Below are positions 24,768 through 37,786 of a stretch of DNA of 64,000 nucleotides, one piece after another. The first letter of the stretch is position 1, and each line of letters begins with the position of its first letter. A program made the position numbers and the translations under genes. A model generated the notes under the pieces. The model did no database searches, was not told the DNA's origin, and saw nothing but the letters and a program-made list of their open reading frames with translations. This DNA comes from Bacteroidota bacterium (GTDB lineage: Bacteria; Bacteroidota; Rhodothermia; Rhodothermales; UBA10348), in contig JAQBZH010000008.1 in the NCBI GenBank assembly GCA_027622005.1, positions 1 to 64,000 on the forward strand, read 5' to 3'.

Positions 24768-26189
24768 CTATTTTTGGACTGGTGTTGGAAATAAGACGCC
24801 GGCTTCCCGTTGCCACCTTTTAAGCTCCGCTAACATGGCGGTGGTAAGCTCTGAACGTACCATAGCAAGGTCCCTGGTCTCCGAAGGGTCCTCGTCTAGG
24901 TTGTACAGTTCAGCTTCGTCATTTTCAAAAAACTGGATTAGCTTCCACGGTCCTTTTCGAATAGCGCCGCTGGGACTTCCGCCCTGGTTGCCATAATGAG
25001 GGTAATGCCAGAACAACGTTCGTTCCGGCTGATTTTTGCCTCGTAGAACGGGGACGATCGATCTTCCGTCCGTTATTTTGGATTCAAGCCCAGCGATTTC
25101 TAACATAGTTGGAAGGTAATCTATGCTGCTTACCAGTTCAGCAGATACACTACCAGGCATGGTCTCCCCCGGCCATTTGATGATAGTTGGTTCCAAGATC
25201 CCGCCTTCATAAAGCCAGCCCTTTCCGGCCCGGTACGGAATGTTTGAGGTAGGATGTCCCTCTGATGTGCTCAGGCCCCCGTTATCCGAAGTAAAAATGA
25301 TAATGGTTCGGTCCGCGACGCCAGCATCTTCGATGGCCGCCATTACTTCTCCAACGGCGGCATCCATCGATTCAATCATCCCCGCATATATGGCATGATC
25401 CTGAGACTGCCTGACCTTTCTCAAGCCTTCTTCTCCCCAAACCGTCTGGCTGCCCAACGCCAACTTCTTAGCTTCGTATTTGGATTGCAATTCCGGCGTC
25501 GTCATCAACGGAGTGTGGACGGAATAGAAGGATAGAAAAGCTAAGAACGGCTTATTGCTGTTGTTTCGGATGAAATCGGCCGTTTCGCGTCCAAGCCGCG
25601 TCGGCAAAAGCTCCCCGTCCGGACCATCATCCAATTTTGGATTACCGTATGGTGAAAAATACCTACTACCTCCATATGGTCCACCGGCTTCATGTCCACC
25701 TCTGTTTACCTCAAATCCGTGGTCTTCTGGATAAAAGCCTTCATTCCCAAGGTGCCACTTTCCAGCAAAAAACGTCGCATATCCCTTTTTTTTGAGTGCT
25801 TCTGCCATCGTTAGTTCGCTGGATGGCAGTTGATCTACATAAGGAGCAGGAAGCATCTTTCTGGAGTCAGCATAGTTCGGCCCGACCTTGTCCGGTTGAA
25901 CAGCTCCAAAATAGTCCGTGGTTTGAAGTCTACCGGGATATTGCCCTGTCATGATGCTCGCGCGAGTTGGACTACAGACCGGGGCGGCGGCATAAGCTTG
26001 AGTGAGCCGAATTCCTTCAGAGGCGAGCTTGTCGATAGACGGAGTTTCGTAAAACGTCTGGGGATTATTCGCCCCGATATCCATGTATCCCAAATCATCT
26101 ACTAGAATGAAGACGAAATTCGGCTCCCTGGGCTCAGCGTAGCCGAAAGCGAGAAGCGCCAGGACCGCGAGTAAATGGTACTTTTTCAT
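24768..26189 (-). CDS. Secreted sulfatase (alkaline-phosphatase superfamily)
   Basis: A 473-residue sulfatase starting at the ATG at 26189, which begins a signal peptide (MKKYHLLAVLALLAFGYA). The metal-binding DD of FILVDDLGYMD lies at 31-32. The formylglycine motif is CSPTRASIMTG with C72, the cysteine-type that anSME or FGE-like enzymes convert to formylglycine. FAGKWHLGN, SDNGG and HYPHYGN also match the family. The substrate is not clear from sequence; polysaccharide or arylsulfate desulfation is typical. No maturation enzyme is in the window. Its start overlaps the end of the frameshifted EamA gene by 56 bp on the same strand. Confidence 0.92.
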   Translation of the reverse strand: MKKYHLLAVLALLAFGYAEPREPNFVFILVDDLGYMDIGANNPQTFYETPSIDKLASEGIRLTQAYAAAPVCSPTRASIMTGQYPGRLQTTDYFGAVQPDKVGPNYADSRKMLPAPYVDQLPSSELTMAEALKKKGYATFFAGKWHLGNEGFYPEDHGFEVNRGGHEAGGPYGGSRYFSPYGNPKLDDGPDGELLPTRLGRETADFIRNNSNKPFLAFLSFYSVHTPLMTTPELQSKYEAKKLALGSQTVWGEEGLRKVRQSQDHAIYAGMIESMDAAVGEVMAAIEDAGVADRTIIIFTSDNGGLSTSEGHPTSNIPYRAGKGWLYEGGILEPTIIKWPGETMPGSVSAELVSSIDYLPTMLEIAGLESKITDGRSIVPVLRGKNQPERTLFWHYPHYGNQGGSPSGAIRKGPWKLIQFFENDEAELYNLDEDPSETRDLAMVRSELTTAMLAELKRWQREAGVLFPTPVQK

Positions 26190-27095
26190 AGGTCTTCTTG
26201 TCCTTTCCAAATACAACGATGAGTGCAACGGCGACCACTAAAACCACAATCCCAATGATCATGCGCGGAACGACTGGTTCATGCGCGATCCAAGCGCCTA
26301 AAATCACCGCGACAACGGGATTAACAAACGCATACGAAGCTATTTGCTTGGGCGGGGCGTTTCGCAACAGCCACACGTAAGAAGAAAAACCGCCCCAGGA
26401 CCCAAACACAACGAGGTACCACCACCCCAAAATGGAATCGGTACTCATGGCACTAAAACTAAACCCGATGGATTCACCGGCAATCAACCCCATAATTGAA
26501 ACGGCAGCGCCTCCGGCAAGCATTTGGACAGCCGATGACATAAACAGATTATCGGGCATCGAAATCATCTTACTTCGCAGGGATCCAACAGACCAAGAAA
26601 TGGAAGCAACAACGACGGCCAGTACTGCCAATCCACTTTTTGAGCTTGCCCCGAGTGCCAGTTCAGGCCATACTAAAAGTATGACTCCTCCCAATCCCAA
26701 CACCAATCCTGTAATCACATACCGGTTGGGGACTTCGCCTTTGAGCATCGTCCAGTCCAACAAGACCATCCAACAGGGTACGGACGTGACCAATAAGGCG
26801 GCCATACCCGAATATACAGCTCTGCCCAAGCGACCAGACTTGTTCCCAACCCCAAAGTAAGCATTCCAACCACGGCGGCGTTACGCATTTGAGCTTTGGA
26901 GGACGTCTTAATGCCCCGTGCTCTCAAAAAAACAAACAACAATCCGCCAGCAAAGACAAAACGCGAGCCTATGGCAAAAAACGGCGGGATCGTTTGAACT
27001 GCATAGGCAATGGCTAAATAGGTTGATCCCCACACCAGATATATCATCACAAATGCGACGATCAGGTGAAAGGTTCGGTTCTGCAAGAGCGACAT
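26134..27095 (-). pseudogene. EamA/DMT-family transporter, frameshifted
   Basis: The N-terminal part (from the ATG at 27095) has typical EamA helices: FVMIYLVWGSTYLAIAYAVQTIPP, then GLGTSLVAWAELYI. It then leaves the frame near 26822 and runs into unrelated residues up to 26715. The expected continuation (YSGMAALLVTSVPCWMVLLDW, then the second EamA repeat to about residue 300) is in another minus-strand frame, open from about 26829 to 26134. A shift of one inserted or two deleted bases around the TATATTCGGG stretch joins the halves into a normal ten-helix drug/metabolite exporter. It is either a recent pseudogene or an assembly error. The 3' end overlaps the sulfatase start. Confidence 0.8.
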
Positions 27096-27409: not shown

Positions 27410-30400
27410 ATGAAAACACCCTCGCTCTCCTTCGTAATCACATCCTCAGCTGTCATCGTATTGGTCTTCTGGATGGTTCGCAGCTCGTCATCCAAAATTC
27501 CGACTTCAGAATCCAGCACCCCATTGTCCTTGGTAGACAGTTTGTATTTGGAGGCTCGTAACACCCATGTGATGCCTTTGGATAAACTAACGTCTGCATT
27601 TGAGTCATCGCTTTTAAACAATGAGCTGAGATTAGCCGCCGACTTTGCACTCGGAATTGTTTACGAAAACATCGGATCTGGAGACCTGGAAAACGCCAAG
27701 GCGTTCATAGACAATTTTCTCCTTGCACAGGACTCTTTACCTTCAATCCGAGCGCTTGGTTCATGTGGGAGCGGCTATTTGGATATCAAAATAGGCCCGT
27801 CGAACGACGCATTGTCAGATTTAAACATTTGCCTTGAATACTTTGCAGCGAATCGTCACGTGTATCCACATGTTTATGGTCACGCGCTTCACTTAACAGC
27901 GCTATGGTTTCATGAACAGGGACAATTCGAAAAATCACTCGAATACTACAATACTGCGCTTGAATTCAGAAAAGACAATACCAGCGATTCTCAGATAGAT
28001 CGAGCCGCGACCCTCAATAATATTGGTAACGTATACTGGAAAAGTGGTCAATTAAGAAAAGCTTTGACCTATCACGAGCGTGCACTTCTCTTAAAACAAA
28101 ACATCTTAACAGCAGGACATCCTGATATTTCAGCAAGTTTAAACAATATTGGCAACGTATTAGCCGACTTAGGTGAATACGAACAAGCTTTAGAATTTCA
28201 CAAAACTGCCTTTGGCCAAAGAATGGGCAATTTGGGAAAACATCCTGCTACGGCTCATTCCCTTCATAATATGTCTGAAGCTCTGTTTCATTTAGGTCGG
28301 CACAGCGAATCATTCGAATCAATGAAAAAGGCGTTGGACATGAAGCAACAAACAGTAGGATCTCAGCACCCCGATTACATCAATTCGATTTCATACTTAG
28401 GATATTTCTATTCCTATACGCATAGGTTTTTACTTGCAGATTCCTTGTTTAATATTTCCTCCGTATTTTGTCGCTTAAACAAATCTTATGTCTGTTCGGA
28501 TACTGAAGTTCTTCAGAATCTTCACCTCCTTAAACAAGGCAAGGTCCATCAAATTGAGTCCTTATTGGACGTTGCGACCCAAAATGAGCGAAATATTGTA
28601 GCGAACTCAAATCCATTGACGTCTGAGCTTTATCTCGGCATGGCAGAACATTTCCGAAAACTCAAAAACTATCCAAAAGCACTTAAATTTGCCAAGCTCG
28701 GGATTTACGCTGCGTCTGGATTGAAATATGAAAATTTGTTGCTTACCCCAACTGCTACAAACAATGTTTCTAATAGAGATCGACTCATTGATTTACTGGG
28801 AATAGTTAGTACCCTTTATAACGAAATAGCACACCACACCAATTCTAAAGAGAACTTAATTTTTGCGCAGCAGGCAAACGTTTTGTCACTTATTCTTTTG
28901 GACGAGTCATTTAATGACCCCTGGACTGATATTTCAAGAAATAGGTCGTCAAACTACTCGAAGGATATATCAGAAAGAGGTATTCGAACATCTCTAAGAT
29001 TATTTGAAATAGATGATAACAAACAACATCTGTACTCGGCTTTTGAATTTGCAGATTACGGGAATAACTGGGCACTTCAGGCACATTTAGTTGAGGTAGA
29101 ATCTATCGCAAAAGCCGGGGCTCCTGAATTTTTAGTATTGGAATTAAAGTCTTTAGTTTCGGAACTAGTAAATCTAAATAGAAGAGAGAATACCAGAAAG
29201 ACTCAAGTCTCAATCATTTCATCTTCGAGATCAGATTCAATTTTTTCCGTGAAAGAACGACTAGCAAAATTGAGAAAGAATCTTCTCGACAATTATCCAT
29301 TGTTTGCTGAATTCAGAAGTAATAGACCTAATAATAGTCTTTATTATTTACAGTCTTATTTATCTATAAATAATTCAACATTATTGGAATTTTTTGAGCT
29401 CGATAACCAACTGTTCACGATTCTCGTCAATGCAACCGAAATATCTTTATTTGATCTGGGTAGCGCGAAAACTGTTGAATCTTGGGGCCAGCGATTTGTG
29501 GATGCGATGGATCCGGAATATCCGACACTTTTTTTAGAACCGAGTAGAAAACTGTCTGAGTTAATTTTTGAACCTCTTCGATCTAAAATTGAGACTTCAA
29601 ATCTAATCGTTATCCCGAATTCAACCATCCAGAATATCTCTTTCGAGGCCCTTTCAAATCCTTCGCCTAAATCGAAATTGAACAAAAATGGCCAGGGCTT
29701 CCTGATCGAGGAATTTTCATTTGTTTACACATTTTCTGCCTTGTCATATTTACGATCTCAAAATTCATCCTCTATACTGAAGGATCGAAAAATATTAGCA
29801 GTTGCTCCTGTTTTTGATCGTTCACCTTCCATGTCCTCAAATGTTAAAGACTTTTTAACTCAAAACTCTGAATTCGGAGAACAAGGTGAAATCACAGTAG
29901 AACCCTTACTGGGGTCTTTAAAGGAGCTTGAATACATCTCAACCCTTTCGAAAAAGGGCTCTTCTAATCCCAATCAAGTTCAATTAACAGAACAGCTGTT
30001 GCGAAAAGATGCCTCGGAGTACGCGATTAAAAATAAAAATTTGCGTGATTTCAACATTCTTCATTTTGCGACACACAGTTTTTCAGATATAAACGACCCG
30101 TTTAGTTCTGGCATTTTACTAGAACTAGATGGTACAAATGGAGAAGACGGAATCTTGTTTACTAGCGAAATTTGGGGGCTCAACATTAACGCCAACTTGG
30201 TTGTATTGAGCTCCTGTGATACTGCAAAAGCAGGTGGTTCGAAAATGACCAGTTTATCTGGATTTGCAAGCAGCTTTTTCTTTGCAGGTGCGGAAAACCT
30301 ATTTGCTTCGATATGGCCTAGCGATGACCTTGGTAACCAAATATTGATGCACCAAGTTTATTCACATATTTCCGCAGGGAAGTCGATCGCCAGTTCGTTG

Positions 30401-30532
30401 CGGTCTGCAAAATTAGAACTTTTAAAAGATGATGGGCCGATTTCACATCCATACTATTGGTCGGGGTTTATCCATATAGGATCGTCGGTGGGGTCGGAGA
30501 ATTCGACGGCAAATGATGTTCGTTTTAGATAA
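27410..30532 (+). CDS. TPR-CHAT protein, membrane-anchored caspase-like protease candidate
   Basis: A 1040-residue protein. A single N-terminal hydrophobic segment (about 8-23) is followed by Ser-rich sequence, then TPR repeats between about 150 and 330 (ATLNNIGNVYWKSGQLRKAL, SLNNIGNVLADLGEYEQALEF, SLHNMSEALFHLGRHSESF), more helices to about 600, and a C-terminal CHAT domain (about 690-1030). The caspase-like dyad is intact: H889 in HFATHS (885-890) and C936 in LSSCDTA. CHAT proteins are clan CD peptidases, and TPR-CHAT relatives serve as partners in type III-E CRISPR and other defence or signalling systems. No such genes are adjacent. The DNA is visibly richer in A/T than its neighbours, which suggests transfer. 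Confidence 0.88.
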   Translation: MKTPSLSFVITSSAVIVLVFWMVRSSSSKIPTSESSTPLSLVDSLYLEARNTHVMPLDKLTSAFESSLLNNELRLAADFALGIVYENIGSGDLENAKAFIDNFLLAQDSLPSIRALGSCGSGYLDIKIGPSNDALSDLNICLEYFAANRHVYPHVYGHALHLTALWFHEQGQFEKSLEYYNTALEFRKDNTSDSQIDRAATLNNIGNVYWKSGQLRKALTYHERALLLKQNILTAGHPDISASLNNIGNVLADLGEYEQALEFHKTAFGQRMGNLGKHPATAHSLHNMSEALFHLGRHSESFESMKKALDMKQQTVGSQHPDYINSISYLGYFYSYTHRFLLADSLFNISSVFCRLNKSYVCSDTEVLQNLHLLKQGKVHQIESLLDVATQNERNIVANSNPLTSELYLGMAEHFRKLKNYPKALKFAKLGIYAASGLKYENLLLTPTATNNVSNRDRLIDLLGIVSTLYNEIAHHTNSKENLIFAQQANVLSLILLDESFNDPWTDISRNRSSNYSKDISERGIRTSLRLFEIDDNKQHLYSAFEFADYGNNWALQAHLVEVESIAKAGAPEFLVLELKSLVSELVNLNRRENTRKTQVSIISSSRSDSIFSVKERLAKLRKNLLDNYPLFAEFRSNRPNNSLYYLQSYLSINNSTLLEFFELDNQLFTILVNATEISLFDLGSAKTVESWGQRFVDAMDPEYPTLFLEPSRKLSELIFEPLRSKIETSNLIVIPNSTIQNISFEALSNPSPKSKLNKNGQGFLIEEFSFVYTFSALSYLRSQNSSSILKDRKILAVAPVFDRSPSMSSNVKDFLTQNSEFGEQGEITVEPLLGSLKELEYISTLSKKGSSNPNQVQLTEQLLRKDASEYAIKNKNLRDFNILHFATHSFSDINDPFSSGILLELDGTNGEDGILFTSEIWGLNINANLVVLSSCDTAKAGGSKMTSLSGFASSFFFAGAENLFASIWPSDDLGNQILMHQVYSHISAGKSIASSLRSAKLELLKDDGPISHPYYWSGFIHIGSSVGSENSTANDVRFR

Positions 30533-30535
30533 CGT

Positions 30536-31741
30536 TTACCTGCGCCCATTAGCAAGTTTGATCGATTCTGGAAGCGACCGGAGTTTTAGCATTGAAATAG
30601 CTCCAAACAAGCATCCGGGAAATAGGATGGTGAAAGCCCATTCGAAGCCTACATATTGGATTGCGATTGGAATGATTTGAAGGGTTATGAGTGTCACCAG
30701 AAATCCTAGGCTCGTTTGGACTTGAAGAGCGGTTCCGACATATTGGGGATCGGCCAGCTCAGTGAGGGCTGTGCTGAATTGAGCGCTATCTGCTATGACG
30801 AAAAATCCCCATATCAAACAAATAATGGTTAGCGGGATGGGGTACGGATACAGGAATCCAGCCAAAAGACAACACCCTCCCGAAGCGATTAGAGAAAGAC
30901 TCGTAATTTTAGTTCTACCTACCCTATCTGCCGAAATGCCGGCGAGAAACGAGCCCACGGCGCCGGCTGCAAATACGCCGAAACTGGCATACCGGGCGAT
31001 GTTTTCTGACTCTCCTGCCGAGTTGTAGCTGGCCGTCAGCATGATTGGGACCCAGGCCCAAACGGCATACAATTCCCACATGTGGCCAAAGTAGCCGAAG
31101 TTTACCAGTCGAGTAGGACGATGGGTTAGTCCTTTGGTAGCTTGTTTCCAGTCGAATTTTGCAGCAGCTCCTAAATGGGGGCCGGATTTAATAAAACCAA
31201 ACGCTAGGCCGGCGGCAATGAGGGACATTAGTGACGTACCGATCATTACAAAACGCCAATTGGGTAAAAGCGATATCTGGGAAGACAAGGCATTTAATAA
31301 ATGCGGAAGGCCCGACCCGAGGGTGACCGCCCCGACTAGCAAGCCGATTCCGCGCCCTCGATCTTCTTTGCACCAACTGGCTACGATTTTCATGGCTGGC
31401 GGGTAAACGCCAGCCATCGTGGCCCCGGTTAAGAACCGGAAAATCAAAGCAGACTCAGGACCACCTGAAAAAAAAGGAATAAACGCGTTGACCAACGCAC
31501 CTAGAACCGCATTATAGGCCATTATTTTAGTGGCGCTAAATCGATCCGCCCAATTAAAAACCGCGCTCGTTAGAGCGCCTACCACAAACCCGATCTGAAC
31601 GGACATGGTCATCCAGGCTTTCATCGTCGCAGAAAGATTCCATTCCAAGGCTAGTTGAGGGACAACCGCCGATGCTGAAAACCACAACGACATCGATAGC
31701 AGCACAACTATGGAAAGCAGTGTCAGGTTTTTGGCTTTCAT
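30536..31741 (-). CDS. MFS transporter
   Basis: A 401-residue major facilitator with 12 hydrophobic segments. It begins with a helix 1 of the kind MSLWFSASAVVPQL, and the loop 2-3 region (NWADRFSATKIM) and the C-domain ADRVGRTKI are the usual cytoplasmic basic motifs. GVYPPAMKIVASW in helix 4-5 resembles the CynX/NimT/NarK-type branch, but the substrate cannot be told. It starts at the ATG at 31741. Its stop is 3 bp from that of the convergent TPR-CHAT gene. A long perfect hairpin lies 114 bp upstream. Confidence 0.85.
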   Translation of the reverse strand: MKAKNLTLLSIVVLLSMSLWFSASAVVPQLALEWNLSATMKAWMTMSVQIGFVVGALTSAVFNWADRFSATKIMAYNAVLGALVNAFIPFFSGGPESALIFRFLTGATMAGVYPPAMKIVASWCKEDRGRGIGLLVGAVTLGSGLPHLLNALSSQISLLPNWRFVMIGTSLMSLIAAGLAFGFIKSGPHLGAAAKFDWKQATKGLTHRPTRLVNFGYFGHMWELYAVWAWVPIMLTASYNSAGESENIARYASFGVFAAGAVGSFLAGISADRVGRTKITSLSLIASGGCCLLAGFLYPYPIPLTIICLIWGFFVIADSAQFSTALTELADPQYVGTALQVQTSLGFLVTLITLQIIPIAIQYVGFEWAFTILFPGCLFGAISMLKLRSLPESIKLANGRR

Positions 31742-36514: not shown

Positions 36515-37786
36515 TTACTCTGACTTAATTCCCTGAATGGCTATCAACCGATCGGTTCGTGCAAATAAGTCATGGTAGTAGACAAAAGCCGTGTACAGGT
36601 TTTCCAGTTGGGGTAATCCGCTGCGCATTGCTGAGGAAAGCGCTGGATTGGTGGTTGCATAGACGTATTCGTATCGGCCCTGTTTTAAGAGGAGATCCGT
36701 TTCGTACCAATTGTCTACGGAGTTCCAGATCAAAACATGGTCCGGGTGAATCTGCCAATCGTTGAAGCTTCCAACGATGTAGACTTTTTCAGCTACTGGC
36801 AAATTGTCTGCTGGCACTAGCTTAAATATTGCCTGCACATATTCGGACGAATAATCTGGTTCTGTGACAAATCGATTGGCCGAGCGAATAACCATTTGAC
36901 CATTGAGAAAAGGTGCCAATTGAGTTCCTGCGAATCGGGCTCGATCAGGCTCAATCTCTATTCGCCAAGGGCTAGTCTGTTGATTAAACCTTTCAACTCT
37001 CCCCCCAGTACGTAGCTCAGACAAGTCTATGAAGAAATTAGAGGGCCGGGGCTGAAAGGACTCTTCAGGCCGTAAATAAAAGGTCAGATCGGGTAAAACA
37101 TCGAGCGTAGGTCTTGTCACACAACGGCTTTCGGCAATTTCGGAGTTTCTTACAAAGCACACCGAATAATCAAATGCGTTGGTGTTGGCCGTAGGTGTGC
37201 GAAATCGAACAAAAGGTTGGATGGAGCTGGCACGATTTCCGGCCATCATCACACGATCCAATTTCATATCCACCGGAGTCGATTGTTCGGTTACAAAAAA
37301 TCTTCGTTCAAACAAAGCTGCTTCTTCATTGCCTTGCTCAGAAACGCGAAGCACATAATTGCCGCTTAATTTGAAATCAATGTTGCGATTCGGAAAATTG
37401 TATTCATAGTGGATATACGGGATGATTGTGGCTCCAGAAGAGCGAAAATCCTGAATAGCATCCTGATGAAAGGCGGTCAGAAATTCGGAAGGAAATAAAT
37501 CGCGTTCCCATTTCTGATTAGCATGGTATACATAAATGGAGAGTGGCCGAGAAGGCCGTTCAACGATGTCAAATGCCAATCTGAGGGATAGTCCAGATCG
37601 TATTTCGACGATGGGAAGCGACGTCTCACTCTGCTCTGGATGTAACTGAACGGAGCGTATTTGGGGGTGATCGATAACAACGTCGACTCTCTCACTAGAA
37701 GAAACTTCAGGGACCGACGTTCCAACTTCGGACAAAGCAGAACACCCGGCAAAAAACAGCAGAAAAATCAGGAATATGATTTTCAA
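36515..37786 (-). CDS. T9SS plug-like lipoprotein (DUF5103 family)
   Basis: A 423-residue protein with a lipoprotein signal (FLIFLLFFAGC). The segments VQLHPEQSETSLPIVEIRSGLSLRLAFDI, WERDLFPSEFLTAFHQDAIQDF and IPYIHYEYNFPNRNIDFKLSGNYVLRV match DUF5103, the family of the Plug protein that closes the SprA translocon in type IX secretion. The C-terminal third (KVYIVGSFNDWQ...YEYVYATTN) looks like a carbohydrate-binding or E-set fold, as usual in this family. It supports T9SS in this cell, with the cargo at 8944-9786. The next minus-strand gene is 23 bp downstream. Confidence 0.82.
   Translation of the reverse strand: MKIIFLIFLLFFAGCSALSEVGTSVPEVSSSERVDVVIDHPQIRSVQLHPEQSETSLPIVEIRSGLSLRLAFDIVERPSRPLSIYVYHANQKWERDLFPSEFLTAFHQDAIQDFRSSGATIIPYIHYEYNFPNRNIDFKLSGNYVLRVSEQGNEEAALFERRFFVTEQSTPVDMKLDRVMMAGNRASSIQPFVRFRTPTANTNAFDYSVCFVRNSEIAESRCVTRPTLDVLPDLTFYLRPEESFQPRPSNFFIDLSELRTGGRVERFNQQTSPWRIEIEPDRARFAGTQLAPFLNGQMVIRSANRFVTEPDYSSEYVQAIFKLVPADNLPVAEKVYIVGSFNDWQIHPDHVLIWNSVDNWYETDLLLKQGRYEYVYATTNPALSSAMRSGLPQLENLYTAFVYYHDLFARTDRLIAIQGIKSE

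Follow-up and report, generated by a model that had tools for sequence, protein, structure and literature searches.

Among bacterial TPR-CHAT proteases, those that have been studied best are cytoplasmic and act together with CRISPR complexes. A second setting for the CHAT domain is the membrane: DdvA of Myxococcus xanthus carries a sigma-binding cytosolic part and illustrates that CHAT, when it belongs to a membrane protein, may act as a sensor rather than as a protease. DdvS, an ECF sigma factor, regulates a CBASS/CRISPR island (PMC12288465). The His/Cys pair of Csx29 is given as H615/C658 in one study (PMC10028731) and as H585/C627 in another (PMC9729208); cleavage by Csx29 needs both its His and its Cys, and the activating allosteric change is carried by the TPR domain (PMC10028731). 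HetF of Anabaena combines CHAT and TPR with one predicted transmembrane segment (PMC8406250). A literature search on extracytoplasmic CHAT proteins returned nothing direct.

We describe here a TPR-CHAT gene of a member of the Rhodothermales. The term window refers to the whole stretch of DNA that was analyzed, 64,000 nucleotides long, and coordinates are positions within it.

Gene and predicted protein

The TPR-CHAT gene spans positions 27410..30532 of the plus strand, begins with ATG and encodes 1040 amino acids; its product is the sole CHAT protein found in the genome. The stop-to-stop frame exceeds this open reading frame by 7 codons only. Because both adjoining genes lie on the opposite strand, the gene forms a single-gene unit. 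All features of the protein that follow are given with their plus-strand coordinates. At the N-terminus, a hydrophobic helix (residues 6-25; 27425..27484) is predicted to be a membrane anchor or signal segment. The best-scoring TPR repeats in Pfam, kinesin-light-chain-like by sequence, extend over about residues 160-330 (27888..28399), and further helical repeats and a linker, poorly conserved and including the most AT-rich stretch, occupy residues 331-639 (28400..29326). The CHAT region comprises residues 640-1028 (29327..30493). It includes the codons for H889 (30074..30076; motif HFATHS) and C936 (30215..30217; motif LSSCDT), both of which are invariant in orthologues. The Pfam CHAT profile (PF12770) matched residues 710-1025 with an E-value of 4.6e-49 and 167.8 bits, the gathering cut-off being 24. 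The original prediction had placed a CHAT dyad of H889 and C936 behind TPR repeats and one N-terminal membrane segment. Both residues are present and correctly numbered, the Pfam matches bear out the repeats ahead of CHAT, and a single helix is predicted at the N-terminus. The anchored, stand-alone form that had been proposed is likewise supported.

The AlphaFold2 model of the whole protein (mean pLDDT 80) consists of the helix at residues 6-25, helical repeats up to about residue 653 and then an alpha/beta region. When the CHAT region was modeled alone (pLDDT 81.6, pTM 0.86), a caspase/separase-like fold was predicted. A structural comparison with Csx29 had been suggested, and a Foldseek search with this predicted model returned Csx29 as the best match (E 7e-14, TMq about 0.6), its protease region aligning with the CHAT region over nearly the full length. 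DdvA and separase came next, the latter with an E-value of 2e-7 and about 10% identity. By sequence, in a profile search of solved structures, DdvA was the only CHAT match (E 4.5e-9), and Csx29 gave no detectable sequence match with the CHAT profile.

Neighboring genes and synteny

The syntenic upstream neighbor is an EamA transporter gene on the minus strand (26134..27095), split by one frameshift into ORFs 26715-27095 and 26134-26829, in agreement with the frameshifted transporter gene that had been noticed beside the TPR-CHAT gene. Compared with an intact orthologue of 309 amino acids, the two parts show 67 and 72% identity. EamA is intact in G001, G002, G009, G013 and G017, as well as in the available part of G003. 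The frameshift is either a recent change or an assembly error. Downstream, and convergent with the TPR-CHAT gene, lies a syntenic MFS transporter gene (30536..31741, minus strand). The window also encodes, at 36515-37786 of the minus strand, a type 9 secretion plug-protein domain (PF17116), which points to a host of the Bacteroidota type.

A TPR-CHAT gene is present at the same locus in 18 of the 27 genomes of the family, which belong to 7 of its 10 genera (g1, g2, g3, g5, g6, g7 and g9). Fourteen of the 27, the window's own genome counted, were recognized by a best MFS match close beside a CHAT gene; anchoring on EamA, the TonB receptor and the zincin added four more (G006, G010, G020 and G026). 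Some of these 18 copies are incomplete, G006 and G010 having only the front part of the gene on the contig and G026 only the CHAT end, and in G002 the gene is split across two contigs. Within the genus, four of the five other species (G001, G002, G003 and G004) likewise carry the gene next to these transporter genes. The fifth congener, G005, is 85% complete in about 410 contigs and gave neither a CHAT nor an MFS match; its site is therefore not seen. Genera g8 and g10 have TPR-CHAT genes at other chromosomal places (L079:9380-12478, L084:7013-9970, L135:1859-4870 and L136:228-3302), and the N-terminus that these encode is lipobox-like. The gene had been called isolated, a description that is not compatible with the orthologues found in synteny across the genus and in most of the family. 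The TPR-CHAT gene is resident and is kept at one chromosomal place.

Base composition

The GC content of the TPR-CHAT gene is 39.6% and its GC3 37.4%, the measured neighbors ranging from 45 to 52% GC. Relative to a sample of 445 ORFs of at least 200 amino acids, drawn from 722 kb of this genome including the window, the z-scores are -3.7 for GC and -3.0 for GC3. A single sampled ORF was lower in GC, at 22%, and is probably N-masked sequence. The gene thus differs in composition from its flanks, as had been stated from the outset. Of the two observations named as refuting the original prediction, a syntenic orthologue throughout the genus is borne out in four of the five congeners, and a base composition like that of the neighbors is not borne out. 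The GC dip is gradual, and its minimum of 31% is located near positions 29100-29400, ahead of the CHAT domain.

A gene of low GC between conserved flanks is not necessarily an imported one. Orthologues were compared over flank GC values from 47 to 63%; outside genus g3, orthologue GC minus mean flank GC was between -0.06 and -0.12 in 11 of 12 cases (the exception being G020, with -0.02), and in the four g3 genomes the difference was within 0.014 of zero. As AT-richness is common to same-locus orthologues in other genera, it is no mark of recent import. The AT-bias is heritable at the locus; faster evolution together with weaker codon selection is a plausible cause. The reading as an imported gene fails on comparison with relatives, which have orthologues at the same site and share the bias.

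Divergence of the CHAT variants and disrupted copies

H889 and C936 are conserved in every CHAT-bearing row of the two alignments (17/17 in A1 and 19/19 in A2). In the genus, identity is mostly about 63-93% for the flank proteins that were compared and 34-63% for the CHAT domain, falling to 34-43% between CHAT variants. Two CHAT classes appear in the genus, G000, G003 and G004 on the one hand and G001 and G002 on the other. AU tests on CHAT, for groups that were chosen with the trees already known, rejected both the G001+G003 grouping of the zincin tree (p 9e-10) and the G000+G001+G003 grouping of the MFS tree (p 6e-4). These tests reject the view that, within the genus, the CHAT variants were inherited in the manner of the species. 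For the TPR half, monophyly of the genus was rejected as well (p 0.007), with long branches in play. The MFS and zincin trees also disagree with each other, which means that recombination is not special to the TPR-CHAT gene and that the whole region is affected; the zincin tree is disturbed by the very long, misframed row of G020 and was used for well-supported pairs only. It is possible that one allele has taken the place of another at the locus. Comparison of the CHAT domains of G000 and G003 gave a pN of 0.22 and a pS of 0.76, values reported in place of dN/dS because synonymous sites are mostly saturated; the CHAT domain is under purifying selection. The TPR-CHAT protein is fast-changing, with rapid divergence and allele discordance.

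In-frame stops interrupt the orthologues of G004 (after codon 364; L072:4627-7752) and G017 (after codon 630; L078:5974-8997), the CHAT half keeping the His/Cys pair in both. In G003, the CHAT fragment begins at about residue 667 and is directly preceded by an IS3-like transposase gene with HTH_21 and rve domains (L004:2292-3119, minus strand). The positions of H889 and C936 are thus retained even in disrupted copies. As three syntenic copies look disrupted, the gene seems dispensable in some lineages; the disruptions come from draft assemblies, and errors may be among them.

Export signals of the orthologues

All sequences with an available N-terminus, syntenic or not, were inspected for a Cys located at the hydrophobic segment or immediately behind it, some start codons being uncertain. 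Such a Cys occurs in 13 of 13 orthologues outside g1 and g5 and in none of the five from these two genera. A lipobox was called with a relaxed pattern, into which 9 of the 13 fall and 4 do not. The window protein has no Cys in its first 40 residues and hence no lipobox. Its charges (K2 before the helix, R24 and K29 after it) do not fix topology alone. The Cys-bearing export signals of the orthologues suggest an extracytoplasmic position of the TPR-CHAT body, with a CHAT domain that would face the periplasm rather than, as in Csx29, the cytoplasm. The comparison of N-termini indicates an ancestor that was probably exported and lipidated, the segment being here either an uncleaved anchor or an ordinary signal segment.

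Discussion

The most likely reading of the locus is a fast-evolving, stand-alone envelope caspase-like sensor-peptidase. We consider it fairly probable that this resident, fast-changing gene encodes an exported, membrane-anchored TPR-CHAT protein in which the TPR half would control dyad-dependent cleavage of an envelope protein; export, topology, protease activity and TPR control of activity are what we infer from the data. The ancestor was probably a lipoprotein that faced the periplasm. The genus of the window and one other lack the Cys for the lipid anchor, and in them the N-terminal helix probably functions as a transmembrane anchor. A ligand or partner in the envelope probably binds to the TPR solenoid, whereupon the CHAT domain would be rearranged, in the way of the TPR-driven allostery of Csx29. 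Once rearranged, the CHAT domain would use H889 and C936 for site-specific cleavage of an envelope protein close by.

The envelope location could also be combined with a CHAT domain that is not catalytic, the protein being a sensor or scaffold in which CHAT is a binding module, as it may be in DdvA, and the dyad is retained for a structural reason or to bind peptides. That DdvA, a transmembrane anti-sigma factor, is the nearest solved relative by sequence speaks for such a role. We regard it as unlikely, since H889 and C936 remain invariant amid drift at most positions, which is the pattern expected for catalysis, and since the 5 residues before the helix leave no cytosolic domain to relay a signal. 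The chance is smaller that the protein faces the cytoplasm and that a trigger binding to the TPRs makes it kill or arrest the cell, in phage defence or regulated cell death. The fold closest to that of Csx29 and the intact dyad would agree with this, and the fast divergence, the discordant alleles and the broken copies would suit a conflict gene; against it stand the Cys-type export signals of the orthologues, the lack of a defence gene among ten neighbors and of a Cas1 or RAMP match in the genome, and a fixed position in 18 of 27 genomes, unlike that of a mobile defence island. PADLOC assigned to the window protein a generic TPR model only and no specific defence model, returned no match for any of the ten neighbors, and gave scattered weak matches among orthologues. 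A part in defence or regulated cell death, which the original prediction had cited for TPR-CHAT relatives, hence finds no positive support here.

A recent horizontal import of an AT-rich gene beside a decaying transporter gene would account for the GC z-score in its own genome, for the EamA frameshift and for locus variants that conflict with the flank trees. We hold it to be highly improbable: locus, orientation and neighbors are the same in four congeners and in other genera, the AT-bias is common to those orthologues, and EamA is intact in CHAT-bearing relatives. A recent foreign island was discarded on the presence of the gene at the site in the four congeners and on this common bias.

The sensor-peptidase that we favor may be taken one step further, although here we can only speculate: the ligand-binding TPR half of a stand-alone envelope caspase-like sensor would be diversified by allele exchange at a fixed locus, for example to recognize phage adsorption or contact with rival cells, and the sensor would respond by proteolysis outside the cytoplasm. 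We rate this version as decidedly doubtful. If the favored reading is true, caspase-like proteolysis would reach as far as the cell envelope, through a branch that is resident, exported, probably derived from lipoproteins and invariant in its His/Cys pair. Thanks to the apparent switch from lipoprotein to anchor and to the two allele classes in one genus, topology and ligand variation can be tested directly.

Among known systems, Csx29 resembles the window protein in that its TPR domain precedes a CHAT region which is made up of a pseudo-caspase and a caspase and contains a His/Cys pair. It differs in working with the partner Cas7-11 on the substrate Csx30, whereas the window protein has an N-terminal anchor. 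Membership in the Csx29/Craspase system was ruled out on the basis that the genome, 97.5% complete, gave no match to PF03787 for a RAMP-type effector, a profile that may miss Cas7-11, and no match to Cas1 for CRISPR adaptation. DdvA (PDB 8ROT/8RW5) is, like the window protein, a membrane protein with CHAT; the window protein differs from it in lacking an N-terminal cytosolic sigma-binding domain, and no sigma factor is encoded among the neighboring genes examined. In HetF, CHAT is N-terminal (aa 1-555) and the protein acts at the divisome, whereas the order in the window protein is anchor, TPR, CHAT. Separase shares with the window protein helical repeats, a caspase-like protease region and the fold match, and differs in being eukaryotic and in cleaving cohesin.
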